Below, in pieces: positions 524 through 19,338 of a stretch of DNA of 64,000 nucleotides; position 1 is the first letter of the stretch; every line of letters starts with the position of its first letter. The stretch is from Hysterangium stoloniferum (Eukaryota; Basidiomycota; Agaricomycetes; Hysterangiales; Hysterangiaceae): NCBI GenBank assembly GCA_015178975.1, contig WHVD01000009.1, forward strand, positions 1,426,001 through 1,490,000, in the 5' to 3' direction. Made by a program: the position numbers and the translations under genes. Below the pieces are notes generated by a model. The model had not been told where the DNA came from. It ran no database searches and worked only from the letters and a program-made list of their open reading frames with translations.

Positions 524-717
524 CTGCACTCCACAGACACTGTATTACGTTTGGACTCATTTTCATTTTTCCCTGTTGCTCTATGCCTCTCTTTGCTTTT
601 ACAGGTTCTGACATGTTTTCAAGTCCTTAAGCAGATTTTCTGCGGACTTTGATTTCTTATGTTTTCACGCCTTACTTTTATTTTCAAAAAAAAAAAATTT
701 ATTAAACTTTTATTATT

Positions 718-1671
718 TTATTCATCTACATTTATGGGACTGTGTTTTTTCCCTGCCTCCTCAGCCATCTCTTGAGGAAGCTCCGCTACCTCTGCGAGCA
801 CCCCATCCTCATCTGACCCAGCACCCTCAGAACTCCCAGCTTGCGGCTCCTGATATATATATCCGCCACACTCCGCTAGGAACTTCCAAAATTCTGAGCG
901 GAGCCCACAGAGCTCATTCGCCACTATGATCTGGACCTTGTTGCTTTTTCTGAGCAACTTGTTCTGGGCCTCAATGCCCTCAGCGATCTGCCCCAACACA
1001 TCGTCCAACCCAGACAACCTGTCTGTCCCGCTAACGTCACACACCCCGGATCCCGTGGGTTGCTCGTGGACAACAAGCACCTCACCTTGACATGTGCACA
1101 TTGGTAGCATCCTGGTCCCTGCCCGGATTTTTGATTGCACTCTGTGTTCCGGTCATTGCAACTGGAACACCACAGATCGTTCCACATCGGAAGACAGACT
1201 GATGCCACCTTCTGTGCCTTCTGTTGATATGGTTAGTTCTATGGAAATCCCACAGACTCGAGACTTGCCTTTTGGGGGCTCTCCGGCTCCCCCGCAGACT
1301 CCGACTCGACCTCTGTCACCTTGTGCTGAAAATGACAAGTCAGTCAAGAAAAAAAAATGACAAGTTGAAAAAATTGGGACTTACTTTTCCCATGACAACC
1401 GCAGCTCTGTCCGCAGCCACCCATGCTTTCTCCACAGCCATCCACACAGCCTCCTACTCTTCTCTCTTCTTTTGCCTTGCAGCCTCTTCCTCTGTGGCCA
1501 ATGCCACCTTGTACTCTCTGTCCAAACCCTCCTCAGCCTCCCTGGCCTCCTTCTCTGCTTCTTCATGAAGTCAGCACTGCTCTTCTTGCTGCACCAAAAG
1601 TTGGGCCACACTGAAAGGTGCCCAATATGGAGTGCCTGTGGAGGGCCTGGCAGTTGGCTTTGCCCCTTCAC
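718..1671 (-). pseudogene. antisense accessory gene of gypsy A (coiled coil plus Cys cluster), copy 1
   Basis: The gene lies between the end of pol and the 3' LTR and reads against pol. The upstream part (about 1671-1381) has an open frame rich in Glu, Lys, Arg and Ala, with runs such as EEAEKEAREAEEGLDREYKV, typical of a coiled coil. The middle part (about 1208-1060) has a Cys cluster: CSSCNDRNTEC, then about 10 residues, then CYQCAHVKVRC. The last part (1140-718) is a leucine-containing segment (LDDVLGQIAEGIEAQNKLL) and an acidic tail. The three parts sit in different frames, so the copy is broken by small indels. The Cys spacing recalls a zinc cluster but does not match the fungal Zn2Cys6 pattern exactly. 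Homologous copies lie at 8853-10343 and 18235-19338. Function unknown. Confidence 0.6.
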
Positions 1672-1887
1672 AGTGTTGGTTTTGGTCCCATAGTGTCAAC
1701 GGTGGGGGTAATAAAGACGAAGAAATTTCATTTTTTCAAATTTTTATATAGGCTCATTGCATCTGAACCTTACCTTCCAGATCACCTGACTCTTTGACAC
1801 ATACATGTAACTGACATGACCTTTGACACATGCGCGTAGCCAACAAGAACCTTATCGAGGTCTAGAGCCTCTTTGGGACATCGGCAT

Positions 1888-1900
1888 AAAGGGAGGGTAC
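1888..1900 (+). other. polypurine tract of element A
   Basis: The purine run AAAGGGAGGG followed by TAC abuts the TGTTA start of the LTR. This is where plus-strand DNA synthesis is primed in LTR retrotransposons. The equivalent site of element B (10599-10612) has the same form. Confidence 0.75.
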
Positions 1901-2740
1901 TGTTATGACCAGAATTCCCACCAGACTCCAGGCACTAACTTATATGCACCCACACCCTATATGCACCCATTGTCAGTTTACCAGAATTCCCGCTGGACTC
2001 CGTATGTCAGACTTGTCTACGTTCAACTTTGTTATGTTGTGTTTCAGTCACCGGAAAACCCACTAGACTCCATCCCTGTCTATGTCCGACCTTGTCCCAC
2101 GCATCAGTCACCGGACCCCACTTGGAAAACCCGTCTTCCTCTAACAGAGCCCCGTTCCTGTTTTAGTCAAATGACCTGTCACGATTTGGACTCCGCTCCC
2201 ACTCCATTTCCCATTATGGTTTATGATTTGTCACTATTTGGACTCTGCTCCATTCCATCCTGTTCCTAACACCAAACTTGGTGTTTACTATTCCTGTTTT
2301 ATGTTTTGCTCATTTCATTTTATCATTACTGTATTTGGTATGTCATTCACTCTGCGGTCTATTTAAACTGGCAGATGTTGTACATACAATCCAGTCAGAA
2401 AATCGGCTTAGATTCCCCCCAGTAATCTAATACATTTTCTGCTCTAAACTCCTATTTGAATTACACCGCTCACACTAGTCAGAGCCCACGGGCTCCAGTA
2501 CATCTATCTTTCTTACCTATCTTGACTTACACCTCGACCCACAACCTCCTGACCCACAACCTCTGACCTATGACCCCTCGACCCACGAACCCCACCCAGA
2601 CTCCCCGGGATTCCCATCCACCTGTCTGAAATTGGACAACACGATCTAGCAAGGGTGCAGCCTATGTATAAGCTGAAGCCAAGTCCTGCCAGATATCCTG
2701 TGGGTTTTCTCTGGAAACCCACCATGTACGTACCCTAACA
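1901..2740 (+). mobile_element. 3' LTR of gypsy element A (family 1 LTR)
   Basis: The LTR is 840 bp, begins TGTTATGACC and ends ACCCTAACA, giving a 5-bp terminal inverted repeat (TGTTA/TAACA). It follows directly on the polypurine tract, so it is the downstream LTR of an element whose body is mostly left of the window. It carries a run of CATTTCATTTTATCATTAC and a TATTTAAACTGG box that may be promoter sequence. Related LTRs lie at 6810-7679 (minus), 9520-10272 and 16688-17450 (minus). Its right end abuts a second LTR type in mid-sequence, which shows that A inserted into the LTR of B. Confidence 0.85.
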
Positions 2741-3393
2741 AGTTGTCAGACTCCACTTGATCCACACATCAACCCATTTATACCCAACTCTCTGTGCCCA
2801 TCACTGGACTCCAACCAAACTCCTGGAACCCCTCTAACAGAGCATAGAACCTCGCTCCCATTATGGTCAAATGACCTGTCATGATTCATCCTCTGCTTCC
2901 ATTCTGTTCCATCCCTAACTCCCAGTATGCTCTTTGCCTGCCTCAATTTATGTTTATTCATTTATCCTTTGTCTCTTGCATTTGTAATAGATTAGTTTTC
3001 AAAGTCTATATAGTCTCCCATACTTGTGTACTTACAATCCAGGTGGAATCTCAAACTAGTTACACCCTGAATACATCCTGATCCAGTCTCTACTCCTCTT
3101 GTCTGTCTACATGCTCAATTCCCAGAACTCTCATGGGAACACCAGAATCTACATCTTCCCTGTAGGTCTTCCATCAGCTTGAAATATGGACACCCAAATG
3201 AGTGTATGAGGGTGCAGCACAAAAGCTGAAGCCAGGTCCATCCCAGCACTCTGGTAATTATTCTGATACTCCTTGTACTAATCCCCAGAAACTCCCTGGA
3301 CTACTACCCTGGGACTCCATGGGACATTCCTGGAAAGTGTTTGGAATATTACTGGAAACTCCATGGCTCGAGATCCTTGGAACTTACATAACA
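2741..3393 (+). mobile_element. 5' LTR of gypsy element B, 5'-truncated
   Basis: The sequence aligns with the inside and 3' end of the solo LTR at 11506-12557. Shared landmarks include the CTGGAACCCCTCTAACAGAG block, the AGCTGAAGCCA(A/G)GTCCA block and the final GGAACTTACATAACA. The first part of the LTR is missing because element A sits at 2740. The element downstream enters pol almost at once, so the leader and gag have been deleted. Confidence 0.75.
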
Positions 3394-5260
3394 CACCCCC
3401 AGCCTTGCCAGTACCTGTGGCCTCAGTGGCCCCTGTGATCCCTATGGCACCCATTGCTTCCCTGGAATCCATGGCACCTCTGTCCATTTCTCTCATTAGT
3501 GCTGCAGTGTCTATTAGAGCTATGAAAATGGATGGATCCCAGGTGTTCACTATCAACTTGAAAATTGATAAAGCAACTGGTCATTTCTCCACCCTGGCAT
3601 CTGAGCAATCCACAGACATAGAAGGTGTCCCTGAGAAATACCATGATTTTCTGGATGTTTTTGGTAAGTGAAAGCACCAGATTCCACCCCACAGAGAGCA
3701 TGACTTAAAAATTGACCTTGAAGAAGGTGCCCAGCCACCCCTTGGCCATATCTACCCACTGTGCTCCATGGAACTTTCTGCAATCTAGGATTTCCTGGAT
3801 GAACATTTGTTCATAGGTTTTATCCAACCCTTGAAGTCTCCTTTTGGAGCACCTGTTTTGTTTGTCAAGAAGAAGGATGGATCCCTCCAAATATGTGTTG
3901 ATTTCAGAGGACTCAATGCTGTTACACAGAAGGATAAGTATCTGCTCCCACTTATATCTGACCTGCTCAATGCTCCACAGAATGCCTGGATTTATACCAA
4001 GATAGACCTTAGACATGCCTACCACTTAGTCTGGATAGCTGTGGGAGACAAGTGGAAAACCACTTTCAGGAACCATTATGGAGCTTTTGATTGGTTGGTG
4101 ATACCCTTCAGGCTCACCAATGCCCCATCTGTTTTTCAATGTTTTATTAATGATGTTTTCTCTGACATGCTTGATGTATGTATTATTGTTTATCTGGACA
4201 ACACTCTTATCTACTCCAAGGACCTTGCAGTACATGACAAACAGGTCCACAAAGTTCCCCAAAGACTCAGACAACATGGTCTATTTACAAATGGTAAAAA
4301 GTGTACTTTTGACACAGACTCCATGGAATATTTAGGTTTCATAATGGGACCCAACAGACTCCATATGGATGACACCAAAGTACAAGTCATCAAAGATTGG
4401 CCAGAATCCAGAAAAGTCAAAGATATACAATCTTTCCTTGGATTTGCCAATTTTACCAATGGTTTATCTGCAAGTATTCCAAGATCATGGTCCTCCTTAC
4501 TTGTCTTGCATGCAAGGGTGCTCCATGGAATTTTGATGATAAGTGTCAAAAAGCTTTCAATCTTTTAATAGATTCTTTTTCTTCAGCTCCAATCCTTTCA
4601 CATTGGCAACTGGACACTCTGCTCATTGTTGAGACGGATGCCTCAGACTACTTGGAGCCATTTTGTCTATCCAGGACTCTGACAGAGAAGTCCACCATGT
4701 GGCTTTTCTGTCCCAGACTTTTACCAGACCAGAGCTCAATTATTATGTCCATGACAAGGAACTCCTAGTGATTTTGCAGCCTTCAAATCATGGTGACACC
4801 ATTTTGAGGGCATGGGAATTCCAATTGACATTGTTGCAGATTACAAAAACCTGGAATATGTTTAAACCATGAAACTTTTGACCCACTGGTAAGCCCTTTG
4901 GTCTGAATACCTATCACTTTCAATATGATCATCTATTTTCGACCCAGCTGCCTTGGCAGCTAACCTGACACTTTGACTAGACAATGGGACATCTATCCTA
5001 AAGAGGGGAGCAATGACTATGACTATGTCATGGTAAACCCGTACAACCTGAAACCCATTTTCACAAACCAGCAGCTTACCACATCAGTCCACATGACTTT
5101 TTTTATCCATCCCATCATCCATGGAATTATCATTATGGATGTTGAGAAATTACATCAAGATATTCTATTGGAAATTCTGCTAGATCTGATAACCAAAGCA
5201 CACCTTGACAACCCTAGTGGTCTCTTGACCAGCATGGCTTCATTAGACTTGACAATTGCA
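3394..5260 (+). pseudogene. gypsy element B: pre-RT, reverse transcriptase and RNase H
   Basis: The order is a short piece upstream of RT, with VPEKYHDFLDVFGK at 3623-3664; the RT domain (about 3790-4460) with [31 protein letters not shown] and [11 protein letters not shown]; and an RNase H start (about 4560-4770) with IVETDASDY. The RT active-site motif reads YLDN at 4191-4202 instead of YLDD, so a catalytic aspartate is lost. A stop follows VFGK at 3669, and several frame changes follow (near 4460, 4560 and 4650). Gag and most of the protease are absent. Downstream homology continues on the far side of a Tc1-like insertion. The copy is dead; the parent would have been an autonomous chromodomain gypsy element. 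Confidence 0.85.
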
Positions 5261-5262
5261 TA

Positions 5263-6383
5263 CAGTGACTCTCAAAACCTTTCAATGTTTGACATTTGCA
5301 TATTGGCCAGCCACTACCAGGGGAGAGAAAATAGCAAAATATATCAAGGAAATACAGTATATAGCTAAACATATGTATAATCAGTGTCTAGAATATTATT
5401 ATGTAATATCCATTTTTGGGTATGCTAAAAATAGTTTATTCAGGCCTGCTCATTGAAAAGGTTTTGATGCTGATGATTATGATGCAATATATGCTATATG
5501 TATTTTAATACTTGGTATACCCTCCCTTGGCCTTTATGACTGCCTCAATCCTTCTTGGCATGCTTTTAATTAACTTCTGACACTCAGAAGCTGGTATATC
5601 TTCCTACTTCTTCTCAAAGTCCAATACTGGTGGGCCAAAACAAAGTCAAGCCTCTCCTTCATGTGTCTCTTGGACAAAGGTGGCTTCTTCTTCTTCTTCA
5701 CAACTGCTTTCATCCCTGCACTCTTCAGGCTCCTCTGAACTGTATGAGCTGAGATAGAGTTGTTGGTGATGATCTGAAGTGTTTTGGCTATGTCAACTGC
5801 AGTTTGAGCCTTTCCAGAGGTGATCAAGTAGACTACATGATGGATGTTAATGGGAGAGAACTTCTTGGGAGAACCTCCAGTTGATTTTGGGAGGGTAGGA
5901 AGGTATTTAGAGTGAAGTCTTAAGATAGTACTAATGCTAATACCAGTTATTGAGGTAATGTATGGAGTGGAATGGCCATCTTCAAGCTGGGCAATAATAT
6001 ATTGTGGCTGATCAGGTGTGATGATGGAATGCATGATGGATTGCTGTTAATGAAAATAGCTAGAAATGTCAGAATTGACTATAAATAAACAGGTCACATG
6101 ACCATGTTGAATACAATCACCAAAACCATGTGATTTGGCCAGTTAATATAGCATATATTGCATCATAATCATCAGCATCAAAACCATTTCAATGAGCAAG
6201 CCTGAATAAACTATTTTTAGGATATCCAAAAATGGATATTACATAATAATATTTTAGACACTAATTCTACACATGTTTAGCTATATACTGTATTTGTTTG
6301 AGATTTCTTGCTATTTTATCTCCCCTGGCAGTAGCCTGCTAATATGCAAATGTCAAAAATTGAAAAGGTTCTGAGAGTCACTT
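5263..6383 (-). mobile_element. Tc1/mariner-like element with long terminal inverted repeats
   Basis: The 1121-bp element starts CAGTGACTCTCAAAACC and ends with the inverted sequence, with one change at the last base, and is flanked by TA at 5261-5262 and 6384-6385. The inverted arms are about 240 bp each (5263-5505 against 6383-6140) with high identity, far longer than a minimal Tc1 end. A second pair of TA dinucleotides lies inside the arms at 5353 and 6291. The central part encodes a fused transposase remnant on the minus strand. It interrupts the region between RNase H and integrase of gypsy element B, so it is younger than B. Confidence 0.9.
5505..6034 (-). pseudogene. Tc1-like transposase, internal deletion removing the catalytic core
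   Basis: The N-terminal part is an open frame of about 130 residues starting at 6034. It is a helix-turn-helix DNA-binding region with the Tc1-type pattern (SITGISISTILRL, then a second HTH with HTVQRSLKSAGMKA, then LSKRHMKERLDF). Right after this, where the DDE catalytic core should begin, the sequence jumps to the C-terminus in another frame: QKLIKSMPRRIEAVIKAKGG, ending TKY and a stop at 5505. That tail is typical of Tc1 transposases. Roughly 150-180 residues holding the three catalytic acidic residues are missing, so the element is non-autonomous. Whether it could be moved in trans depends on a complete relative elsewhere. Confidence 0.85.
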
Positions 6384-6385
6384 TA

Positions 6386-6809
6386 TATGTACTAGACTCC
6401 CACAGTCTCTGCCTAATAATAGTACAGTACAGCCATGATCACCCACTCTCAGGACATTTTGGGCTCAACAAGACTCTATCATTAATAAGAAGAGAATACA
6501 CTTGGCCAGGACTCTGAGATTTCATTAAGCACTATTGTAAATCTTTCATCACTTGTCCATGCTCCAAATCACAGCATCACAAGCCATATGGCCTTCTGAA
6601 ACAATGCCCAGTACTAGAAGACCTGTGAAATTCCATCCCAATGGATTTTATTGAACACCTACCAGACTCTGAAGGTTTTTACACTATTCTAGTTGTGTTG
6701 ACAGATTCTCAAAACAAGGTATTTTCATCTCCACACATGACACCATCACATCTATGCAGTTAGCAGAACTTTTTATCATCAATGTATTTTCCAAGCATGG
6801 AGTCCCATC
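6386..6809 (+). pseudogene. gypsy element B: integrase N-terminal and core part
   Basis: This is the continuation of pol after the Tc1-like element. It shows HPLSGHFGLNKTLSLIRREYTWPGL, then a zinc-binding stretch ending in CPCSK, then HKPYGLLKQCP and the first catalytic aspartate in PMDFIEHLPDSEGFYTILVV. Stops lie within DFIKHYCKSF (a TGA where Arg is usual) and after LEDL. At 6809 it is cut by a minus-strand solo LTR and resumes at 7680. Confidence 0.8.
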
Positions 6810-7679
6810 TGTTAAGGTGTGTGCAGAACGTATTGGAGGGTTTCCAGAGAAACCCACAAATATTCTGGTAGGACTTGGCTTCAACTTATAGGCTGCACCT
6901 CACAAGATTGTAGCATCCAATTTCAAACACGTGGATGGGAAACCCAGGGAGTCTGGGTGTAGGACTCCCTGGGTGTAGTTGATAGGCTGAAAGACCAGTT
7001 GGGAAGCCCATGGGCTCTTATGAGGTCGATAGCAAGCATTGTGATATGAGAGATGGAGATGGACCATGGACCAGTGGGAAAGCCTACACTCTGACAAGGT
7101 CAATAGTGTTGTGAGATGGGAATGGAGCAGGTATGTGCTAAGTAACTGGGGGAGGACTTAGTCTGAAAACTTAGTTGATTTTCTGACTGGATTGTATGTA
7201 CAACATTAGCTAGTTTATATTGACTGTAGAATGTATGCAATCCCAAATCCAGTAATAGTGAGATCCAAACAAGTAATCGTGAAACAAGATAAGTAAACAC
7301 CAAATTAGGGTTAGGAACAGAATGGAACAGAGGTGGAGTCTGAAACATGATAGGTTATTAGACCATAATGGGAATGGGGCTCAATTAGAGAGCTGTTGGG
7401 TTATCTGGGTGGAGCCTGGTGACTGGTATGTGGAATGGGGTCAGACCTAGACAGGCTTGGATGTGTGTGGGTCCTGGTGGGGTCCAGTGACTGATGCGTG
7501 AGACACAGGGGGTTTGGCATAGACAGGCTGCAGGTCCCAGCAGTGTCTGATGACTGATCCATGAGACATAGAGGGTTAGGTGTAGACAGGCTTGATATCC
7601 GGGTCCCGGCATGTTTTCCAGTTTAGCTGTAACTATGTAGGATGGGGTCCAGATCCCAGTGGGTTTTCCAGTCCTAACA
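6810..7679 (-). mobile_element. solo LTR (family 1, minus orientation) in the element B integrase
   Basis: The 870-bp LTR begins TGTTAAGGTG and ends TCCTAACA. It is the reverse complement of the LTR type seen at 1901-2740. The flanks are CCATC on the left (6805-6809) and CTGTC on the right (7680-7684), three of five matching. Removing the LTR and the right flanking pentamer restores the integrase frame GVPSHITSDRG, which fixes the insertion point and shows that the right pentamer is a mutated target duplication. No internal region remains, so it arose by LTR-LTR recombination. Confidence 0.85.
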
Positions 7680-8566
7680 CTGTCCCACATAACTTCTGAT
7701 CGAGGATCAGAGTTTGTATCTCACTTCTTTAGATCCCTCAGGAAATCCTTGGACATGAAGTTATATACACTTCACATCTAGACACCACCTGGAAGGTGAC
7801 AGACAAACCAAGCATGTCAATCAGACATTGGAACAATATCTTCATGTATATTTCAACTACCAACAGGACAATTGGAAATCCTTGTTACCACTTGCAGAAT
7901 TTGCTTACAACAATGCACCCTCAGCCACTACTAACATTTCCCCATTCTTTGCAAATAAAGTGTATAATCCAAATATTATGGTACACCTAGAATGGAACCT
8001 TGTCTCAGCCTGTGCTCAAGAATTTGTCATGGACCTGCAATAAAATCTGCCCAAGAATAATATCAGCATTCAGTGGACAAAAACCAGATTCCACCATCCA
8101 ACTTCAAAATTGGTGACTATGCTTTGTCAAAGCTCAATTCTTCTGGACTACCCATCCATCAAAGAAACTTGCTGAAAAATATTGAGGTCTGTTCAAGTTA
8201 ATAGCACAAGTTGGTTCAGTTTCATGGACCCTGTGGCTTCCAGATACCATGTGCACAGTACACCCAGTATTTAATGTCTCTATGCTAGAACCATGTACTG
8301 CTAACACTATCCTGGACTGCATGCAATCTCTGCCCCCTCCAGTCATTATTGACAGAGAACTTGAAATCTCACAAATTTTAGACTCAAAAATAGATAAGTG
8401 TCAATGCACTTGTAAACTGCTTTACTTGGTCAAGTGGGTGGGTTACAAGGGCACAGATGAAGAGACATCTTGGATTTTGGGCATGGAACTTGGGAATACC
8501 ATGGAGATCATCACTGACTTTCACACAGCTTACCCACTCAAACTGGGACCATTATCCTCTCTCTAG
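7680..8566 (+). pseudogene. gypsy element B: integrase C-terminal half and chromodomain
   Basis: The second catalytic aspartate is in TSDRGSEF (about 7697-7720). The third acidic residue should be Glu in the QTE motif but reads Lys (QTKHVNQTLEQ, codon at 7810-7812), so the active site is dead. Then come YNNAPSATTNISPFFANK, the GPF-like region in a shifted frame, and the final open frame with VHPVFNVSMLEP, EISQILDSKIDK and the chromodomain KLLYLVKWVGYKGTDEETSW, ending at 8566. The chromodomain keeps its Trp, unlike element A. Several frameshifts lie between 8040 and 8250. Confidence 0.85.
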
Positions 8567-8852
8567 CCACATTCCACAGACCCCATGTACATATATGTGT
8601 TGGACTCACTTCATTTTTCCTTGTCACCCTATGTCTCTCTTTGCTTTTACAGGTTTCTGATTTGTCTATAAGTCTTAGAGGACCTTCCTATGGACTTTTT
8701 CACATTTTTATTTGAAAATTAAAAAAATTTATTATCATTTTCTTTTCCCTCTACATTAATGGGGATATGTTTTTTGTCCATCTTCATTAAACTCTTTTGG
8801 AGCTCCACCAGCTCCTTGGCCACCCCAGACTCCTCCCCAGGATCCTCAGAAC

Positions 8853-10420
8853 TCATGCCCTGGGACTCCTTATATACATATCCTCCATATTCTGCCAAGA
8901 ACTCTGGAACTCCCCATGGAGTCCCCAGAGACTCTCCACCATAGACCCTTGGACCTGGTTGCTCTTTTCAAGCAAACAGTTCTGGGCCTCTATACCCACC
9001 ACTATCTGCCCCAAAGTTTCCACCAAGGCCCCAGGCCTTTCTGCCAAGCCACCTGCTTCCCATGCCACAGACCCTGTGGGCTTATTAACCAGTGAGCACC
9101 TCACTTTGAGGTGCACACATGGCCAACAGCCTGGGTCTTTCCCAGACTTCTGGTAGCATTCCACATTGAAGTCATTGCACCCAGTGCACTGCAGGTCATT
9201 CTTTGACTCCAGACATACTGGAGCCACTTTCTTTGACTTCTGTTGTTTGGTCAGTCTCAGACATTCCCATGGACCTGCCACTTACCTTTGGTGGGATCTC
9301 GCCTCCCCCTCAAACTCCAACTCTACTTCTGCTACTTTGTGCTAGAGAGTAACAGTTAGTGAATTCAAAAAAAAAAAAAGAAGAAGTAATTGTACCTTGC
9401 CCATGGCCCTCTCTGCAGCTGCTCTGGCATACTCCATGGCAACCTGTGCTGCCTCCTCTTCCTTTCCTCGGCATCTTTCTTGGTGACCACCACCACATTG
9501 TACTCTCACTCAAGCTCCTTGTTGTGACCGGAAATCCCGCTGGACTCGAGGCACTAACTTATACGCACCCGCACCCTATATGCACCCATTATCAGTTTAC
9601 CAGAAAACCCACCGGACTCTGTCCCTGTCTATGTCCGACCTTGTCCTATGCATCAGTCACCGGACCCCACTCAGAATACCCATCTTCCCTCTAACATTGC
9701 CCTGTTCCCATTTTAGTCAAATGACCTTTCACGATTCGGACTCCACTCCCACTCTGTTTCCCATTATGGTTTATGATTTGTCACTATTCGGACTCCACTC
9801 TGTTCTGTCCCATTCCTAACACCAAACTTGGTGTTTACTATTCCCATTTTATGTTTTGCTTGTTTCATTTCATCATTACTGGATTTGGTATGACATTCAC
9901 TCCACAGTCTATTTAAACTGGCAGATGTTGTACATACAATCCAGTCAGAAAATCAGCTTAGACTCCCCCCAGTAATCTAATACATTTTCCACTCTAAACT
10001 CCTACTTGAATTACACCGCTCACACTAGTTGGAGCCCACAGGCTCCGGCACATCTATCTCTCTCACCTATCTCAACTCACGACCCCTCAACCATGACCTC
10101 CGACCCATGACCCCTCAACCCACGACCCCCACCTGGACTCCCCAGGACTCACGTCTGCCTGTCTGAAATTGGACAACACAATCTGGTGAGGGCACAGCCT
10201 ATAAGCTGAAGCCAAGTCCTACTGGATATTCCACGGGTTTCTCCAGAGACCTGCCGTGTACATACCCTAACACTCCTCTTCCTCCTCTCTTGCTTTTTTC
10301 TCGTCCTCCTCCCATCACTTCCAATGTTCTTCACACTGCTCAAGTATTTGAGCAGCAGTGAGGGGGGCTAATAACTGGCTCCCGTGGATGAGCCTGGCTG
10401 TTGTGTTTGGTCTACAAGGT
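8853..10420 (-). pseudogene. antisense accessory gene of gypsy B, copy 2, split by a solo LTR
   Basis: Same position (between pol and 3' LTR) and antisense orientation as copy 1. The Cys part (9281-8853) is an open frame of about 140 residues with CTGCNDFNVECYQKSG, then CWPCVHLKVRC, then LVETLGQIVVGIEAQNCLL, the last close to the LDDVLGQIAEGIEAQNKLL of copy 1. The coiled-coil part lies upstream and is cut by the solo LTR 9520-10272. Beyond the LTR the frame continues with EQCEEHWK, a stop, then WEEDEKKAREEEEE; inside the LTR boundary it resumes ELE, stop, EYNVVVVTKKDAEERKRR. At least two stops lie in the coil. Function unknown; a DNA- or RNA-binding accessory or a regulator of the element is only a guess. 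Confidence 0.65.
9520..10272 (+). mobile_element. solo LTR (family 1) with perfect 5-bp target duplication
   Basis: The LTR runs from TGTTGTGACC to ACCCTAACA (753 bp). CTCCT stands immediately before it (9515-9519) and immediately after it (10273-10277). No internal region is present. It splits the coiled-coil part of the antisense accessory gene of element B. The intact duplication suggests it is younger than the solo LTR at 6810-7679. Confidence 0.93.
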
Positions 10421-10598
10421 GTGGGCTTTGCACCAATGGTGAGCAGAGGATGGGGGTATGAAAGAAGAAGAAATTTTATTATTTTGAATTTTTATATAGG
10501 CTCATCGCACTTGAACCTTACTTTCCAGATCACATGACTCTTGGATATGTATATCTGAAACTTTATCACATTCTAGGACCTCTATGGGACTTCAGCTT

Positions 10599-10762
10599 TA
10601 AAGGGAGGCTACTGTTAGGACTGGAAAACCCACTAGCATCCAGACCCCACCTTGTATACACCCAACCCTCTATATGGTACCCAAGTACAGTCACAACTTG
10701 AGTGCCCACTGGGACCTGTACATGTCACACCTGTCTATATCCAACTCTGTCTCACACACCAC
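10599..10762 (+). mobile_element. polypurine tract and truncated 3' LTR of element B
   Basis: The purine run TTTAAAGGGAGG followed by CTAC ends at 10612, and TGTTAGGACTGGAAAACCC starts at 10613. This matches the start of the solo LTR at 11506 (TGTCAGGAACTGGAAAACCC), so elements B and C share an LTR type. Homology stops near 10762, after the CTCACACACCA block, and unrelated CpG-containing sequence follows. The rest of the LTR is deleted. Confidence 0.8.
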
Positions 10763-11505
10763 TTTCTATCGCATTTGACATTCTGGTCCAGGCAGCTCAT
10801 CATTATATGAAAATTCAAACCACCTAAATATACATAGAATCATATTGATCTATTGCATATGTGTATAGCGAGACACATCGATCATCATATAACCATCTCT
10901 ATCTATTGGCATACAACCTCATCCAGCCTCTCCGCATGCCGACCATATAACCACATCCAACCAGACTCACACCTATATGGTAATTGCAACCGTCTGTCAG
11001 CACACTCACTGCCCAAAGTCAAAAACATACCGGTCTCGGGAGCATGAAGACACTGAGATGATAAATAGACAGCAGAAAGTGGCATGAGGAATCGCACTGG
11101 GCCAGTCTAACGACAATGTGAAGGCATTACGAGCACGTGAAAAGAGCACCTATTATACAGCGATGCAGGCAGGATAAAAAGTGACTGAAGTGACATTACG
11201 AGAGAAGTTAACAGGTAAGAGATACAGTTAATTAAGTGGCACCAAAGGTAGAAGATATGCGGGAAACTTGAAGAGCGAGCATGCAGTAAAGTGGGAGACG
11301 AGGTGAGAGACACGGCTGCCAAGTGCATTGGCTGTATGAGATGTGAGAACGTAGCTTGAGATTCATAAACATTGAAGGCGCAGTACACAATAGCAGATAT
11401 CGCGTGAATAAAGGGCGAGACCAGCGAGACAGTAGTGATAACGTGAGAGTGGTGAAAGCTGAGGCAGGAGACATCAGAGCAATAGAGAAGTCGAAAGGGG
11501 ATGCC
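10763..11505. other. unassigned unique stretch before solo LTR C
   Basis: The base use is different from the elements to the left: CpG is present at near-normal frequency. The longest frames are about 80-95 codons on the minus strand (11388-11107 and 11474-11232), with no domain I recognise. It may be the pre-insertion host sequence into which LTR C was inserted. No RNA gene or repeat is visible. Confidence 0.4.
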
Positions 11506-12557
11506 TGTCAGGAACTGGAAAACCCGCCGGCCTCCGGGCCCCCGGACCCCATCCTACATGCTCCCGACCCTCTATATTGTATAGCAACAACCGGAGTTCC
11601 CACGGGACCCTGTACATCAACTCGTTTATGCCTGACTCTCTGTACGCACCCCACCTGTCTGCACCTAACCCTCTATGTCTCATACACCAGTCCTCGGACT
11701 CCCCGGACTCCGGACTCCACTCTATGTACACCCGACACTCTGTCATATGTACCAGTCACCGGACTCCGACCGGACTCCTGGAACCCCTCTAACAGAGCAT
11801 AGAACCCCGCTCCTGTTATCTGTCTCTGCGTCTCACACACCAGTCATTGGAAAACCCACCGGACTCCACCGGACCTCCTGCACATCAAGCCTGTCTATAC
11901 CCGACACTATCCTGTGCACCAAGTCACCGGACTCCGACCGGACTTCCGGAACCCCTCTAACTGAGCCCCGCTCCAGTTATGGTTAAATGATCTGTCATGA
12001 TTCGTTCTCCACTCCCGTTCCGTTCCGTCCCTAATTCCCAGTTTAGTATTTACTTGTTTGGTTTTATGTTTAATATTTCTGCCTCTCATTAATACCGGAT
12101 TTGGTATTATTACATTTCACAGTCTATATAAGTCTGCTATATTCATGTACTTAGAATCCAGTTTCAATCTCGAACTAGTTTTCCCCCGAACAAGTTTGAT
12201 CCTTGAACAGTCTCTAGTCCTCTTGTCTGTCTGCACACTCAATTCCCGGAACTCCCACGGGAACTCCGGAATCTATATCTTCCTGTATGCATTCTGTCAG
12301 CTCGAAATATGGACACCCGAATGAGTGTACGAGGGCGCAGCCTAAAGCTGAAGCCAAGTCCATCTCAGTCATATCACCAGACTTTCTGGTAATTATTCTG
12401 ATATCACCGTTCCTTGTACTAATAATCCCCGGAACTTTCCCGGGACCTATTGCCCAGGGACTCCGTGGGACTATTTCCCGGAAGCAAGTGTGTGTTCGGA
12501 ATAGTTACTGGAAACCTCCGCGGGACTATCCGTGGAGCTTTGTTTGGGAACTTAACA
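11506..12557 (+). mobile_element. solo LTR C (family 2), perfect 5-bp target duplication
   Basis: The LTR is 1052 bp, starts TGTCAGGAACTGG and ends GGGAACTTAACA. ATGCC flanks it on both sides (11501-11505 and 12558-12562). It is CpG-rich (runs such as CCGCCGGCCTCCGGGCCCCCG), unlike its relatives in element B, so it is young or has escaped the C-to-T decay. It contains an internal duplication: a CCGACCGGAC...GGAACCCCTCTAAC block occurs near 11766 and again near 11935. A TATATAAG box lies at about 12125. Confidence 0.93.
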
Positions 12558-12562
12558 ATGCC

Positions 12563-14010
12563 GAAGGATGCTGAGGATGCGTTGATACAAGTCTGGAAAT
12601 CATGAATGATCCTGTCCTTTGCAATATAAACAACATGAAAACATACTGAATGTTAATCCTCCCTAGTATTGTTTGTACCTTGGTTGCTCGCCTCCCTCAG
12701 CGACTTGCTGAAAATGATCCATTTCTATTTATAATGCCGGGGGTGCATCACAATAAAGTGGAAGACGAAACATAGGAAATAAAGGGGGCATTACTTTAAT
12801 TTTTTCCTTCCCAAGTGCTTTCCAGATACATTCGAAGGTGGCTGGCATAACTGGATAATGTGTCTTGAGGTATTCAATGTAAAATAAATTTCAGGACAAT
12901 GCATTAGTTACAGTCCAGAAAATATTTGCACTTACTTGGCTGAATTTGTACCTCTGATACGCTTCATTCTGGTGGCAGAGCTGGTTTTACCTGTTCGCTT
13001 GTGATCTATAGAATTTGGAGGACGGGCATGTTTGTTTGCAGCATTTAGCTTGTTATAGGCATCATACAGGTTCACCATAAGCAGAGTTTCCAGCAGCCAG
13101 AAGGTCTCTGTGGTTGGCAGTTTTGTAATAAAATGCCTATCAAAGAGCACATATATGTGCTCAAAACATGAAGACTATGTGGTAAACTTACAAGTTCATG
13201 GCCCATATGGTTACTGTAGATCAGATTATTCTCAAGCAGGTTGTGGCTGGAACGATGCGACTGGGATTGGGGATGTCTAAATGGTCAAAACGATGACTCT
13301 CCTCTACTTTACTCCAGAAGAATAGGGTCAATTACTGGGGGAGCATACAGCTGTGGTTTTCTGTGAGAACATGTAAAAGGAGGTGAGGGCCATGACACTG
13401 ATGATATGGTGGTAGAAGGCAAGGTCAACTGGCCCCGGAGTGTGGTACATTTGTGTCATTGTCACACATTATTCTAGCAGCAGTGGTGGTTTCAAATTCT
13501 TGCTTTGGATGCAGTATATACCCAGTATCATGTTTTCTATGGTTTCTACTCAATTTTAGCTTGGAATCCTGAAGGAACTCCCCATGGTTGGTTGCCATGA
13601 CAATAGCAGCTCATATTTTAGTTCTAATTAGATATCCCCAGATGAACCGTCCTTGTATATCTCAATACAAATGGAGCCAACATCAAATATTGGTACAGAA
13701 CCATTGAAAATATTGCAGGAAAGCAGTTGGTTATACAGGATTATGTTACAAAAGCTCCGGCACGATTGCAGATCAACGATGTTATACCTACTTTATTTGG
13801 TTATGCCTGGTTGTATTAGGAAATAGAGATTTCTTACTGGGGTTCAACATCAGTCAAGAACCAGATGAAGAGTCACTCTATTTACAGACAGGAGTAATAC
13901 ATATATACTTTAATTAACTGTCTGAGAACGATGCCTTAGCAGAATATCTAAGCATAGGCCTCTCCATCTATTTTAGAACTTTTATCTAGAGAAAAACCCC
14001 TATCGAGTGT
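12563..14010. other. unassigned stretch with one exon-like minus-strand frame
   Basis: The only notable frame is on the minus strand at about 13141-12937. It is bounded upstream by a TTTGATAG acceptor-like site and downstream by a GTAAGT donor-like site, and encodes FWLLETLLMVNLYDAYNKLN followed by a basic tail. I do not recognise it. The rest (13.15-14.0 kb) has stops in all frames. It could be the remains of a host gene or an old DNA transposon. Confidence 0.3.
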
Positions 14011-14108
14011 CTATGGAGACCCCCTATATACTATGGAGACCCCCTATCTACTATGGAGACCCTATATACTATGGAGACCCCCTATATACTATGGAGACCC
14101 CCTATCTA
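14011..14108. repeat. 20-bp minisatellite, five units
   Basis: The unit CTATGGAGACCCCCTATATA is repeated about five times. The variants have TCTA for TATA, and one unit is shortened by three bases. Nearby CTATTTTAGAA and AGCATAGACC stretches look like decayed outer units. Confidence 0.85.
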
Positions 14109-14550
14109 GCATAGACCTTATATAATTCTCGTATTGTGCCTTAGTCTTGTTCACCAGTTTCACTACATGTCATTGACCGACATTGAGGGGATTACCACCC
14201 AGCTCCAAGATGCTCATCTTTCAGAGGACCATTTAGTGCAATGTTCTGGCACTACATAGGTAAAAAAACGATGCAAGCGAAAAATAAAAGCGAAGTCACA
14301 CGAGCCAGTGTATTGCACATTCCACCCGCTTATACTTTCTTTCCATGGGGTTACATTTGCAGGTATGTCCTTGAAAATATATTTACAATTACCTCGTAAC
14401 ATTCCCTTTTCAAGAGTGGATGGGGCCTTATTTGGACCCAGATACCCAATCAGAGCTGAAGACGACGATAGCGAAACAAGTCAGTGATAGTGATGAAGCA
14501 GGGGATTTATATGTGTGAATATTCCTCTGTTTATATAAATACCTTGTCGC

Positions 14551-15437
14551 TTGTTCAATGCAACACCCAGGTTTCAGATCCTTAATGGATCCTCCCATGA
14601 AATATGTCTCAAAGTAGGCAGGACGATTCAGGGTGTCTCTACGCGACTTAAACAGTGGCAAAGCCACTGCGAATCCAAAAAGTTTATAATCCTCGGTAGC
14701 TGGTGTAAGTATAGGAATGGTCAATATTTTCTGAAAGCTACTAATACAATCGAGGTAGTGGAAAGCCGACTATCCCACAAACTTGAGCGACTGGTTTTCC
14801 TCGAATTGGAGGATTTGGCCGTTAATGCTCCTTATCTCAAGGAGAAGAAAATTTTTTCATCACCCAATTGGGGTGCTGAGAAGAGAGAAACTATGAAGTG
14901 CATTCACTGTACGTCGATTACAGATCCCAGAATTCTTTGAACAGTCGAGTTAACTTGATATGTCTGAAAGTAAAGAGCTCTATTGAGAGATTAAAAGAGT
15001 GGGAGAAACAGTGTACTCCAAAGGAAATTACCTTTCTTTGTCACTGGTGTAAGTATAGGAATGGTCAATATTTTCCGAAAGCTACTAATAAAATCGAGAT
15101 AGGGGGGGTAGGGGGGCGCCGACTTTCCCCCGAACTTGAACAGCATGGACTGATCTTCCCTAAATTGAGGAATTTGGGTGTTGATATCAAGAAACCCTTT
15201 CCGTCAGTCAAAGGGTGTTTTGTGAAAGGGAAGAGGGAGGCATGTGTTGATTGTACGTGGATTAGTCACCCTAGTACATTTGAGCGGTTATTAAATTCAT
15301 ATAGGTAACCAGAGGCACCGAGAAATCTTCACATTTCGACTGGCAAAACAGGGGACAAATGAAGACCTGGAAGAGTTGGTGACACTAATCAAGACAGTGA
15401 TTGAGAAATGGCTTGAACTGTTACAGATTTTGTGCTA
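14551..15437 (+). CDS. hypothetical gene with a tandemly duplicated Cys/Trp domain
   Basis: Two similar units follow each other. Unit 1 (about 14605-14930) and unit 2 (about 14955-15270) both read ICLKV, a helical RLK-W stretch, Cys, then WCKYRNGQYF, KATN and IE, then an L-rich segment ending in a CxxCT pair (CIHCT in unit 1, CVDCT in unit 2). The cysteine pattern C, about 10 residues, C, about 70 residues, CxxC suggests one metal site per unit. The units are in different frames, with overlapping open frames 14551-14940 and 14898-15308, so either a short intron or a frameshift lies between them. A last segment in a third frame (about 15310-15437) reads RHREIFTFRLAKQGTNEDLE and ends ELLQILC and a stop. 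Upstream at 14169 an ATG opens MSLTDIEGITTQLQDAHLSE, possibly a first exon. Family not recognised. The strong similarity of the core motif between units argues for real protein constraint. Confidence 0.5.
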
Positions 15438-15872
15438 GTGAAAGATTGGTGATATCCACCTCACTCAGGTGAATATGGTAGTATCACAGATATAATGTCT
15501 CAGTCGACACGAAGGTGGTAAATCCACTGATATAAAAGAATGGAACATATTAAAGATATAATGTTTACCAAGTAATCGTTAGTATGCTAATGTGAAAGTG
15601 AAAACATATTTATGAGTCACATACCTCAGTTGACACAAAGGTGGTAAATTGACTGAGGTACACATGATAACTGTATCTGTATTTATATGGAAATGAACAG
15701 TGGGTTCTGATGCACAATGAGATGGCAAGAAAGTGGAACAAAAGAATAAATGGACAAAAGATTATTTGGAACTTGTGGTTGCTGTGTTATTGTTCTTTTG
15801 TGGCCTTGAATTCTCCTTGTCTTTGTTCAGGAACACATAAGACATAGTTCATAAGATCTCCCTGGCTAAGTG
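15438..15872. other. non-coding end of a copia element, with a short duplicated block
   Basis: A 25-bp block, CTCAGTYGACACRAAGGTGG plus TAAAT, occurs at 15499-15523 and 15625-15649. The second copy is bracketed by CCTCAGT (15624-15630) and ACTGAGG (15652-15658). The stretch lies downstream of the copia RNase H in the sense of that element, so it is probably its 3' untranslated region and LTR, but I cannot fix the LTR ends. Confidence 0.4.
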
Positions 15873-16687
15873 TTCCCTTTAGGAAGACATAGATGGAGAC
15901 CAACACATTTTTTTGATATGTGTTGTGTGTGGAAGTGGTTTAGTAAAAATGACAGTGAGGTGATCAGTAGATGTAATGTGTTTTCCTTCAATGTCACCAT
16001 CACTAACTTGTTCACAGATATAGTGGTACTGTATGTCAATGTGCTTAATGTGATTGTTATGTTTGGCATTTTTTGTCAGGGATACAGCACCTGCATTATC
16101 ATTCCACAAAAGTACAGGTCATGGCTGTGGATATCCTACTTCCTCCATTATGGAATACATCTATAGCATCTGTTTCATTGCCCTGTTAAGTGCCATGGAC
16201 TCTGTAGTTGAAAGAGCGGCAGTTGGCTGATATTGGGTTCCCCAGGCTGTTGGGCTACCTGCCTGGATGAAAACATATCCTGAACACAAACAGTGGTTGT
16301 CAAGGTCCCCACCATAGCATCTACCGATTGGTTTGAGATCTTTGTATTCCCCACCATATGCTATCTTGTACCCAAGGGTACCTTTAATATACCATAGTGT
16401 GTGTGCATGGGTATTCCAATGACACAACCTGGGTTGGATGCAAATTTGCTGAGAGTGGATATACTGTAAGACAAATCTGGTCATGTTAATATCTGTGCAT
16501 ATATGATAGATCCCAGTAATCCACAGTAAGGTTTGTTGGCCATAAAAGAACAATCTTCTCGCAGTTTTGGTCCCATATCCTGTGTCAGTATGACTCCCAG
16601 GATAGCAGCATTCCCCATGGGTTACAATCAGCCATCCCAATCTGTCAAGAACTTGTTTGAGATATGCCTGTTGTGAAAGACTGATAG
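15873..16687 (-). pseudogene. Ty1/copia RNase H and C-terminal end of pol
   Basis: Minus-strand frames carry HWNTHAHTLWYIKGTLGYKI, then LKPIGRCYGGDLD, then SGYVFIQAGSPTAWGTQYQP, ALSTTESMAL, DNAGAVSLTKNAKHNNHIKH and IDIQYHYICEQVSDGDIE, ending with TKPLP. This is the standard order of the copia RNase H domain. The DADY motif has lost its first residues, EAEYMAL has been reduced to ESMAL, and a frameshift separates the two main frames near 16165. The RT part is missing because a gypsy LTR abuts at 16688. Confidence 0.88.
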
Positions 16688-17450
16688 TGTTAAGGGATGG
16701 GCAGGCTCACAGAGGGTTTCCAGAGAAACCCACAGAAAATCTGGTAGGACTTGGCTTCAGCTTATAGGCTGTGCCCTCACAAGATCATGGTGTCCAATTT
16801 CAAACAGGCAGATGGAAAACCCAGGGAGTCTGGGAGTAGTTGATAGATTGATAGGTCAGGAGGCCAGTCAGAAAGCCCACAGGCTCTGACAAGGTTGATA
16901 GCATTGTGTTTGAAGATAAGAGATGAGGATAGAGTGGGATATATGCTAAGTTACCAGGGAGAACTAAGCCAAGGAGAACTTAGTCAATTTTCTGACCAAA
17001 TTGTATGTACAACATTAGCTAGACTATATAGACTGTGGAATGTATGCAATACCAAATCCAGTAATAATGACAATCAAAAGAAGTAATCATGAAACAAGAC
17101 AAGTAAACACCAAACTAGGTGATAGGGATGGAATGGAACAGGAGTGGGGTGTGTATGACAGGTCATTTGACCATAATGGGAATGGGGCTCAGTTAGAGAG
17201 CTGATGGGTTGTCTGGGTGGAGTCCAGTGACTGGTGCATGAGACAGAGTCAGATATAGACAGGTTTGATGTGCATGGGTTCTAGCAGGCACTCCAGTTGT
17301 GACTGTACTTTGGGTACCATATAGAGGGTCAAGTGCATATAAGGCTCCAGATGCCAGCAATTTTTCCAGTTAACTGTAACCTGGTGGATATAGAGAGTCA
17401 GGTGCATGTAGGATAGGGTCTGCAGCCTGGCAGGTTTTCCAGTCCTAACA
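16688..17450 (-). mobile_element. gypsy family 1 LTR, minus orientation, at the copia/element D boundary
   Basis: The 763-bp LTR begins TGTTAAGGGATGG and ends TCCAGTCCTAACA, the reverse complement of the family 1 LTR. The flanks are GATAG (16683-16687) and GAAGG (17451-17455), three of five matching, which may be a decayed target duplication. No polypurine tract is next to it. CpG is depleted, so it is an old insertion. Confidence 0.8.
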
Positions 17451-17966
17451 GAAGGCCAGGAAGGCAACCAAGGTGGAGTGTATGAAATCTATATATGAAA
17501 CTGGCCCAGAAAGTTTCACAATTTGTTGACACCTGATTGGGACATTGCATGCAAGGTATGAGGGGAGGAATAACACAGCAACAATGATTAAATAATCATG
17601 TTGCAGCACAGGATCTGGGATGTACAAATTTGTGGAAACTAATATAAGTTTTTTCATTATTGTACTACAAACTAAGATGACAACAAGATGGAATCAGAAG
17701 TATTCTGAAATGGGAACACAATAAGACAGACTAAGGGAAATATTCCAAAATGGGAATACAATAAGTAAACGAGTGAATACTTGTTAGTCGACAAGTTACC
17801 AAATGTGGAACAAAGGTGAGATCTGGAAGTATGGGAACTATAAATGTTCTGTAGTCAGAAGTCAGAATTGGATATAGAGGTGGGAAGTCAGATTGGAGAC
17901 TTGGGGCAGAGGTTGGATGTTTCAGATGATGTTGGATATTGAAGTATCTGGGAACAGGTTGTAACA
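17451..17966 (-). mobile_element. partial 3' LTR of gypsy element D
   Basis: In minus-strand sense it starts TGTTACAACCTG at 17966, directly after a polypurine tract (GGGGGGTAC, 17967-17975). The sequence differs from the two LTR families to the left, so element D is a separate lineage. The distal end is not marked by a TAACA or similar terminus, and homology to an end is lost at 17451, where another LTR lies. I treat it as truncated. Confidence 0.6.
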
Positions 17967-18234
17967 GTACCCCCCTGTTAGTCTGAAATCCCATAGAGGC
18001 GATTAGGTACTGAGCATTGAACCGTTGGTTATGCATTGTGTCGTGAAATTATGCAAATTTGAAAGTGGAGAGTTTCAGCTGCTGATCTGAGTATAAAAAC
18101 ATTCAAAATAATGATTTTCTTTCTTTAACCACAACTTGCATGTCAATTTGCTATCCTTTGTTTGCCAATACTCCAGAAGATTCAGATGCTGAAATTGCCA
18201 TACTCACAAAAATGTCGAAGGTCGAAGAATTTCA

Positions 18235-19338
18235 ATGAAAATAACAGAGGATAGAGGAGTTGAAGCAACAACAAGAGGAGGAGAAGTATGTGGTGATGCA
18301 GGATTGAAGGAGATGGAAGAGGCAGAAAAACATGAGTTGGAGTGGGTGAAGGTGGAGAAGGAAGTGGAGGAAAAAAGGAAGGAAGATTGGAGGTTGTGGG
18401 AAGAGGCAGAGAAGGAATGGCAGGATGCCATGGCAGAAGAACAGTGGTTGAAAGAGAAGTGGAATGGAAAAGTAAGTGATCCAGAAATGTTCCATGTATT
18501 TCTGATAATGGTAGGTCACAGTGGAAAGCCATTGAGGTGGATGAGGAGAGGTTGGGCCTTCGAGCCCAAAGATAAGTGATTTGTACTAGTTCTGGGTTAT
18601 GACTAGTTTCTGAAACAGAAACAAAAAACCAAAGCTCTGGAATAGATGGAAACTGCCCACAAAATTCCATGTCAGCATTGTGCAAGCTGGAGCATCACTT
18701 GTTGGAGACAAAAGGTAAAGTGGGGTGGAACCTGTTTCCCTTGCACAGTAAACAAAATTCTGTGCACTCTCAAAAGGTTGAAAAGCAGAAACTATGAAAG
18801 AGGTGGAAGAAGTGGCAGTTGTGGAAACCTCAGGAATGGCCAAACCTGTGGAAACTGAAGTGCCAAAAATGGACAATGATACTACATCAGTAAAATGGTA
18901 TTTGCTCCGGACGGCTCCCGGAGGAGATCCCCCCATTCTAGGAAGCTCCTGGACGTTGTGGAGTGTGTGGAGCATCCCAGAATAGGGGTACCTCCTCCCA
19001 GCGTTTAATACCATTTTACTGATGTAGCATCAGACTCCTCATAGATATGTACCATTAATGTGATGGTATTTATTGGGATGGAGTTGATGAAGGTTTAAGA
19101 GACCTTAGACCACCATAACCATGTCCAAGAGAAAGGTTTTTGGGCATTGAAATGAAACTTCCAGAAACAGAATGAGTTCCTGGAAAAGGTAATGGTCAGC
19201 ATTGGTATTATTACAGTTTCTGAAAGGTATGCCAATAAGGACAAGGATGAGCTGAATGATCCATTGGGAGGTGTTGTCGAGAAAAGATGGGCATCAGGAG
19301 AAAAGTCAGAAAGTGAAGATGGGGAGGTGCAGACATAG
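18235..19338 (+). pseudogene. antisense accessory gene of gypsy D, copy 3
   Basis: This is the third copy, again antisense to pol and between pol and the 3' LTR. Its coil part is the best preserved: an open frame of 114 residues from 18235, with EMEEAEKHELEWVKVEKEVE and later EEQWLKEKWNGK, strongly predictive of a coiled coil. After a short gap a second frame (18646-18858) has CQHCASWSITCWRQK, then CFPCTVNKILC, matching the Cys spacing of copies 1 and 2. A MITE at 18885-19024 interrupts the part after the Cys cluster. The C-terminal frame resumes EFLEKVMVSIGIITVSERYA and ends in an acidic tail at 19338. Breaks: frame change between coil and Cys parts, and the MITE. Confidence 0.65.
18885..19024. 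mobile_element. 140-bp MITE with TA target duplication
   Basis: It starts CATCAGTAAAATGGTATT and ends with the exact reverse complement, flanked by TA at 18883-18884 and 19025-19026; the palindromic match also includes one more base pair outside each TA. The interior is CpG-rich and non-coding. The TA flank suggests mobilisation by a Tc1/mariner-type transposase, but the termini do not match those of the element at 5263-6383. Confidence 0.85.

Follow-up and report, generated by a model that had tools for sequence, protein, structure and literature searches.

Antisense Genes of Retrotransposons

Additional open reading frames (ORFs) lying antisense to pol, between it and the 3' long terminal repeat (LTR), are known from plant Ty3/gypsy retrotransposons, namely Grande gene23, RIRE2, Retand ORF4/TRP28, and PvRetro13. 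They are conserved in many copies, DNA-binding or nuclear roles have been proposed for them, and Grande is reported to have its own antisense promoter (PMC7264820 and PMC11963269, available parts). A gene in the same place and orientation occurs three times in a 64,000-nucleotide stretch of the basidiomycete Hysterangium stoloniferum (assembly GCA_015178975.1, contig WHVD01000009.1, positions 1,426,001 to 1,490,000), the whole of which is called the window below. Each copy adjoins the chromodomain end of pol. The gene has two introns and codes for a protein with a cysteine cluster of the Zn(II)2Cys6 type, its halves in swapped order; we consider it somewhat probable (about 0.55), judging from sequence, that this protein is an element-encoded, nuclear, dimeric DNA-binding regulator of its retrotransposon, expressed from the antisense gene's own promoter. 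The plant systems differ in their hosts, in that Retand is not a chromovirus, and in the domains named in the available texts, which are TRP28 or SMC-like and not a zinc cluster. The Pfam TRP28 family (PF04195, the Retand type) had no match in ten proteins of the fungal gene (seven from exon 3 and three from exon 1) at E values up to 10.

HBZ of human T-cell leukemia virus type 1 (HTLV-1), a deltaretrovirus, is a spliced basic leucine zipper protein. It is likewise an antisense-encoded nuclear regulator of a retroelement (nuclear role in the available part of PMC11963269), and it differs in belonging to a vertebrate virus and in having its promoter in the 3' LTR (PMC7264820, available part), whereas the putative promoter here lies between the polypurine tract (PPT) and the gene. 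An "additional ORF" of chromodomain Gypsy elements in fungi has been mentioned (PMC2864245), a likeness by description only, since the available text gives neither the element, the strand, nor the sequence. The word "antisense" is absent from the available parts of PMC3248453 and PMC3411680, the word "intron" from the main text of both papers on the plant antisense ORFs, and the extra ORFs of rotifers lie on the sense side (PMC5408684, available part). No intron-bearing or zinc-cluster antisense gene of fungal gypsy elements was found in the open-access literature, subscription papers and gene databases being mostly outside that scope, and annotated homologues may well exist unnamed; the viral contigs searched held no relative. 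Antisense extra ORFs are known from plant Ty3/gypsy elements, and none combining introns with a Zn2Cys6-type domain was met in the open literature searched.

Three Copies of the Gene in the Window

The first-pass annotation had placed the same antisense gene at three points of the window, between pol and the 3' LTR, and this is borne out by protein matches, a cysteine-motif scan, and the PPT/LTR motifs. In the comparison of window proteins, copies 1 and 2 share 40% identity over 132 amino acids (E = 1.5e-20); the homology of copy 3 to copy 2 is distant (31% over 75 amino acids, E = 4.6e-4). A six-frame scan of the window for CX2CX6CX5-16CX2CX6C gave exactly three matches, one per copy. In all three cases the gene is flanked by pol's chromodomain end and the 3' LTR, with the PPT/LTR-start motif directly past its 5' end (1891 and 10603 on the plus strand, 17957 on the minus strand). 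The TATA-box pattern matched only twice in the whole window, at copies 1 and 2 (0.13 expected). All three copies are damaged, copy 1 by frameshifts, copy 2 by a solo LTR within exon 1, and copy 3 by a short inverted-repeat insert. The features are as follows.

301-530, plus strand: decayed chromodomain end of pol, element 1 (318-538 repeats 8361-8581, the site of Pfam SH3_Tf2-1 and Chromo matches, at 83%)
718-1691, minus strand: copy 1 of the antisense gene, a frameshifted pseudogene (splice anatomy from comparison with the other copies)
about 1691-1385, 1325-1269, and 1220-718, minus strand: exons 1, 2, and 3 of copy 1
about 1384-1326 and 1268-1221, minus strand: introns 1 and 2 of copy 1, the second with a decayed donor
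1077-1169, minus strand: cysteine motif of copy 1 (six-frame pattern scan)
1742-1751, minus strand: TATA box of copy 1 (box pattern search)
1891-1910, plus strand: PPT and 3' LTR start of element 1 (0 mismatches; source of the search pattern)
8186-8566, plus strand: integrase tail and chromodomain of element 2 (SH3_Tf2-1, E = 6.7e-8; Chromo, E = 2.2e-4)
8745-10437, minus strand: copy 2 of the antisense gene, its start codon lost and exon 1 interrupted by a solo LTR
about 10437 to 9396, 9341-9286, and 9239 to about 8745, minus strand: exons 1, 2, and 3 of copy 2
9395-9342 and 9285-9240, minus strand: introns 1 and 2 of copy 2
9096-9188, minus strand: cysteine motif of copy 2 (six-frame pattern scan)
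9520-10272, plus strand: solo LTR in exon 1 of copy 2 (84-86% identical to the element 1 LTR, in two pieces; 5-bp flank repeated)
10490-10499, minus strand: TATA box of copy 2 (box pattern search)
10603-10622, plus strand: PPT and 3' LTR start of element 2 (3 mismatches in 20)
17957-17976, minus strand: PPT and 3' LTR start of element 3, whose pol is on the minus strand (4 mismatches in 20)
18092-18099, plus strand: TATA-like box of copy 3 (read by eye)
18212-19338, plus strand: copy 3 of the antisense gene, of a divergent subfamily (start codon uncertain, ATG at 18140 or 18212)
parts of copy 3, plus strand: charged-helix exon up to a GTAAGT donor at 18472-18477, zinc-cluster part at about 18648-18780, then the tail
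18670-18765, plus strand: cysteine motif of copy 3 (six-frame pattern scan)
18877-19032, no strand: insert within copy 3 resembling a miniature inverted-repeat transposable element (26-bp inverted repeats at its ends, 96% inverted match)
19608-19847, minus strand: chromodomain region of element 3 (identity to that of element 2, 57.7% over 52 amino acids)

In element 2, the SH3_Tf2-1 match reaches 33 bits (cut-off 30), and the chromodomain (PF00385) scores 21.5 bits, below its cut-off of 25.1. A blastn comparison of the copy 1 LTR with the LTR region of copy 3 (17264-17957) gave no match, which, together with the chromodomain identity of 58% over 52 amino acids, indicates that the elements are of distinct lineages; two different LTR types had been noted with the gene at first.

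The Encoded Protein

Zn(II)2Cys6 proteins have the consensus cysteine spacing CX2CX6CX5-12CX2CX6-8C, and those of the Gal4 type are built of a cluster, a linker, a coil, and an acidic tail. The cysteines of the antisense-gene protein satisfy this consensus in every window copy, as well as in 17 of 20 loci retrieved with up to 10 kb of context (20 of 150 listed genomic places, from a chosen list of 40, a sample biased toward the query), with no case in shuffles; in the remaining loci, L033, L035, and L050, the six-cysteine pattern is unmatched. When the pattern scan was extended to the window plus these loci (260,175 bases), all of its 20 matches fell at the antisense gene, with none in shuffled sequence.

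The spacing CX2CX6CX9-10CX2CX6C is shared with the fungal Gal4-type factors (Pfam Zn_clus, PF00172), each half of the cluster matching the other half of the profile. In native order, six of the seven whole exon-3 proteins match Zn_clus below the cut-off of 21 bits and as half-profile pieces, while the seventh (L033) and three exon-1 proteins gave no match. In three of the six, the best stretch includes the first three cysteines and matches the second half of the profile; in the other three, it includes the last three cysteines and matches the first half. Among isolated pieces of 43-44 residues, one reached 22.0 bits, above the cut-off but split into two half matches, and the others scored 17.2 and 14.4 bits. 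A domain with swapped halves, once doubled in tandem, would be expected to show a single full match spanning the join; the doubled domains were searched with PF00172, one reversed duplicate serving as the control. Two doubled domains scored 33.4 bits (E = 4.7e-8) and 25.1 bits (E = 1.8e-5), both above the cut-off, and that of window copy 3 scored 20.7 bits (E = 4.4e-4), slightly below it; the best stretch spans the join in all three, and the reversed duplicate gave no Zn_clus match. Doubling also brought up one chance match, to Sublancin (E = 0.003). By its sequence, the cysteine cluster has the spacing of Zn2Cys6, its two halves having changed places. The whole genome holds 42 Pfam Zn_clus matches.

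An AlphaFold2 model of the window proteins, built on an alignment of four rows, predicts one helix at residues 83-138, behind the cluster, with a pLDDT (predicted local distance difference test) of up to 93 in this block and a mean of 50 for the model. The conserved residues L76, L80, I83, I87, and L94 are in heptad register. The order of cluster, linker, heptad helix, and acidic tail is that of the Gal4-type regulators, from which the protein differs in the swapped halves, in the sub-cut-off score of the native order (whole exon protein), and in being carried by a retrotransposon. A coil, a cysteine cluster, and a leucine-bearing tail had been read from the three copies before; six cysteines in each of them, the charged-helix exon, and the predicted heptad helix agree with that description, which is refined by the two introns. 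The SPINVD C-terminus following the acidic stretch of exon 3 is conserved and might be a short interaction motif.

As the domain is basic and rich in cysteines, the protein might alternatively bind, package, or chaperone RNA, i.e., be a second nucleocapsid. This seems improbable: the cysteine spacing is that of Zn2Cys6 and not of CCHC, a CCHC-type knuckle is already present in a candidate gag fragment of element 3, and a separate antisense promoter (see below) is ill suited to stoichiometric co-production with Gag. The anatomy of the putative zinc cluster favours regulation or targeting over packaging.

Exons and Introns

The gene consists of three exons separated by two introns of ca. 48 nucleotides, of fungal size and with canonical signals; the exon junctions, read by eye, are in phase 0. 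Exon 1 codes for MGPKP followed by a charged stretch rich in A, E, K, and R, exon 2 for ca. 19 residues, and exon 3 for the six-cysteine cluster, the helix, the acidic stretch, and the conserved SPINVD end. Introns were counted in 47 distinct genomic copies (from L001-L050). In intron 1, GT is kept in 41 and AG in 44 of the 47 copies, and in intron 2, GT in 43 and AG in 46, with all four dinucleotides kept in 38, and a branch motif is present in 39/47 and 45/47, respectively, against 15% of shuffled introns. Identity between copies is 81-91% in the splice and branch motifs, 47-60% in the intron bodies, and 63-76% in the adjoining exon stretches.

No clean removal of an intron was found in the 47-copy alignment, the shortest stretches being 35 and 38 columns long, and in a few copies (such as L006, L020, and L044) intron 1 is replaced by other sequence. 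Distances between the midpoints of exons 1 and 3 rest on partial matches and were excluded as an intron test. Since no intron has been cleanly lost, the copies seem to spread via the sense RNA, in which these stretches are not introns, as we infer from the established course of retrotransposition.

Promoter-Like Region

The region upstream of the gene has a recurrent layout. In 30 of the 47 copies the PPT/LTR junction was found where expected, ca. 200 bp before the ATG. Between the PPT and the ATG there are a TATA box and short repeated sites, both counted in the 31 copies whose start can be recognised and whose upstream sequence is long enough. Of these 31, 28 have a TATA box (TATAWAW) 53-66 bp ahead of the ATG, with 3.6 expected from shuffles. 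A 10-bp site resembling ATGTGTCAAA, a motif picked after inspection, occurs twice in 17 copies, once in 13, and not at all in one, the paired sites being ca. 30 bp apart; among shuffles, about 0.4 of 31 have one. Identity between copies in this region is 0.70-0.95 per 10 columns, falling to 0.42 in the final 10 before the ATG.

Genome-Wide Distribution

The genome searched, a single one, comprises 111 Mb in 554 contigs. The copy 2 exon gave 1205 first-look candidates, the best 150 of which all had E < 2e-30, and a 170-amino-acid relative gave 1363, the best 150 being at least 81% identical and open frames of ca. 170 amino acids being common among them. The copy 3 family gave 358 first-look candidates, and many of the best 150 have open frames of ca. 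222 amino acids.

The position of the gene relative to the chromodomain was determined among the matches listed. For the copy 2 family, 291 distinct gene places were crossed with 150 chromodomain places, and the gene is antisense to the chromodomain and downstream of it in all 55 listed pairs up to 1 kb apart and in all 56 up to 2.5 kb apart, the median gap being ca. 219 bp (range 203-1024); chance alone would give about two pairs within 2.5 kb, and two sense-downstream pairs join when the distance is widened to 5 kb. A listed gene lies no more than 2.5 kb from at least 56 of the 150 chromodomain places. For the copy 3 family (150 gene places against 144 merged chromodomain places), 37 of 37 listed pairs within 1.5 kb are antisense and downstream, the count being 40 plus two antisense-upstream by 3 kb, and 41 plus three by 5 kb. 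Sixteen of the 20 loci have an opposite-strand chromodomain with integrase and/or reverse transcriptase, in most of them in the order reverse transcriptase, integrase, chromodomain. In L042, a second LTR (94.5% identical over 508 bp) is found on the gene's far side, which places the gene inside the element. The early reading of an accessory gene of chromodomain elements is thus upheld for this genome by all the listed close pairs of both families and by the pol domains of the 16 loci, and the occurrence of the gene in two divergent subfamilies fits the proposal that it is older than the split of the lineages.

The four loci without a chromodomain match were considered as solitary host genes, an explanation that was rejected for three of them: L045, L047, and L050 retain a stretch of element DNA past the gene, up to an interruption, and have the PPT/LTR junction at its usual distance. 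L043, broken within exon 3, shows neither assignable element DNA nor the junction at that distance. At L037:2353-2727 and L031:3042-3422 there are chromodomains less closely related to that of element 2 (33% and 40% identity, respectively), and no match to the antisense gene adjoins either of them, so that the gene seemingly does not accompany every chromodomain lineage. It was also observed that 32 of the 291 gene places start less than 6 kb from the beginning of a contig, and 25 of these 32 are on the minus strand, compared with 131 of 259 elsewhere. Oriented telomere targeting was considered as the cause, but assembly breaks would look alike; the bias probably reflects such breaks inside near-identical elements, with the gene lost when the 3' side is cut, and telomere or centromere clustering is a less likely cause.

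The constant neighbourhood of a chromodomain element, which adjoins the gene in every listed close pair, would also suit a targeting or import factor, which would attach to the chromatin or DNA of the host, tether the pre-integration complex or import it, and, with the chromodomain, pick insertion sites. A coiled coil, a zinc cluster, and an acidic tail are parts appropriate to a bridging protein, and import by extra proteins has been proposed for the plant antisense ORFs (PMC7264820, available part). A separate antisense promoter with tandem sites better suits a regulator than a particle component, and we regard a targeting role as unlikely.

Selection and Shared History with pol

Selection was estimated from rows with coverage above 60%, window copies included (49 for exon 3, 40 for exon 1, and 36 for the chromodomain); three exon-3, one exon-1, and four chromodomain rows were left out for low coverage, L003, L009, and L016 as duplicates of longer loci, and L001 as part of the window. 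With CpG transitions excluded, omega (dN/dS) on internal branches is 0.46 for exon 3 (bootstrap 0.39-0.55), 0.40 for exon 1 (0.32-0.53), and 0.40 for the chromodomain (0.30-0.51), while on terminal branches it amounts to 0.60-0.65. For CpG transitions the values are 1.04-1.13 on terminal branches and 0.57-0.99 on internal ones. A lower omega on internal than on terminal branches is the pattern expected from functional lineages whose inserted copies decay afterwards; 23 of the 49 exon-3 rows have no stop. The antisense gene is under purifying selection, like the chromodomain, and the excess of synonymous change proposed by the first-pass annotation as a check, run here on copies within one genome, was found. 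Of codons with a single difference, 55% are synonymous in the coding frame, compared with 49% in the antisense frame sharing third positions and 18-23% in the remaining four. Distances between copies of the gene and of the chromodomain are correlated in 31 paired copies (r = 0.38; none of 1000 permutations as high), the gene having diverged about twice as much (0.30 vs. 0.14).

These values bear on two further explanations. One is that the antisense transcript, and not a protein, acts by dampening pol or provoking its silencing via double-stranded RNA. The gene converges on pol, and such regulation is discussed for plant elements (PMC7264820) and for a fungal one (PMC10648671) in the available parts of these papers; nevertheless, purifying selection at the protein level in exons 1 and 3 equals that of the chromodomain, and splice signals conserved above the intron bodies are unexpected for a pure RNA regulator, which makes this explanation quite improbable. 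The other supposes a host transcription-factor gene captured as DNA and now a roleless passenger, as might be suggested by its introns and promoter and by the closest Pfam family being fungal. A passenger is very improbable in view of an internal-branch omega of 0.40-0.46, where a value near 1 would have supported it, and of the gene's presence in two divergent subfamilies, with many copies having open frames of ca. 170 or 222 amino acids.

Proposed Role

As a regulator of its element, the protein would form a dimer in the nucleus and bind DNA via its zinc cluster. The first candidate targets would be the tandem sites of the gene's own promoter, giving feedback, and possibly the LTR as well. 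Antisense placement would let the intron-bearing gene travel whole within the sense genomic RNA, because its introns are unrecognisable there and are kept on reverse transcription. A more specific version, which we put forward tentatively as a possibility short of an even chance, is a self-regulating mobile circuit, in which the half-swapped Zn2Cys6 dimer reads the tandem sites in its own promoter and which has spread to very many copies.

Several observations weigh against the proposed regulator. The best native-order Zn_clus score of the whole exon proteins is 16.6 bits, with a cut-off of 21; the zinc-cluster part of the AlphaFold2 model is of low confidence (pLDDT ca. 30), and a profile search of solved structures gave nothing above chance, the best hit being a viral coiled coil (E = 0.53). 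The usual site of Zn2Cys6 proteins is of the CGG type, from which ATGTGTCAAA differs. In the promoter CGG is scarce (29 vs. 75 in shuffles), and CGG-CCG pairs are not in excess (4 vs. 6.9). In LTRs, CGG/CCG pairs total 108, 73, and 113 against 42, 50, and 60 in shuffles, the excess holding for no more than 10, 12, and 13 copies out of 15, respectively. The ATGTGTCAAA site is not enriched in the LTRs of 15 copies (1 observed vs. 0.8 expected), and the LTR was rejected as the target of this site.

Other Features of the Window

A Tc1/mariner-like transposase fragment (5275-6370, minus strand; HTH_Tnp_Tc3_2, E = 3e-12) lies within pol of element 2, flanked by 225-bp inverted repeats that are 90% complementary. 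A different gypsy-like gag-pol occupies 24115-29475 on the plus strand and starts with an intact ORF of 757 amino acids; no antisense gene was found in its vicinity by the six-cysteine scan. Direct and inverted repeats of ca. 120-710 bp densely cover the right half of the window (30446-59653).

Significance

The function of the extra antisense ORFs of plant gypsy elements is still unsettled (PMC7264820, available part). The fungal gene is anatomically clearer, as it has a promoter-like region, introns with their splice signals, a domain that can be recognised, and an estimate of selection, which makes the question of function directly testable. It also suggests a reason for antisense placement, since a gene with introns stays intact on passage through the sense RNA only if it is antisense. 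Counts of zinc-cluster proteins in genome annotations may include such element genes, and a permuted order of halves would mostly escape the standard Zn_clus profile. The self-regulating circuit, if true, would establish a second class of zinc-cluster proteins in fungi, one with permuted halves.

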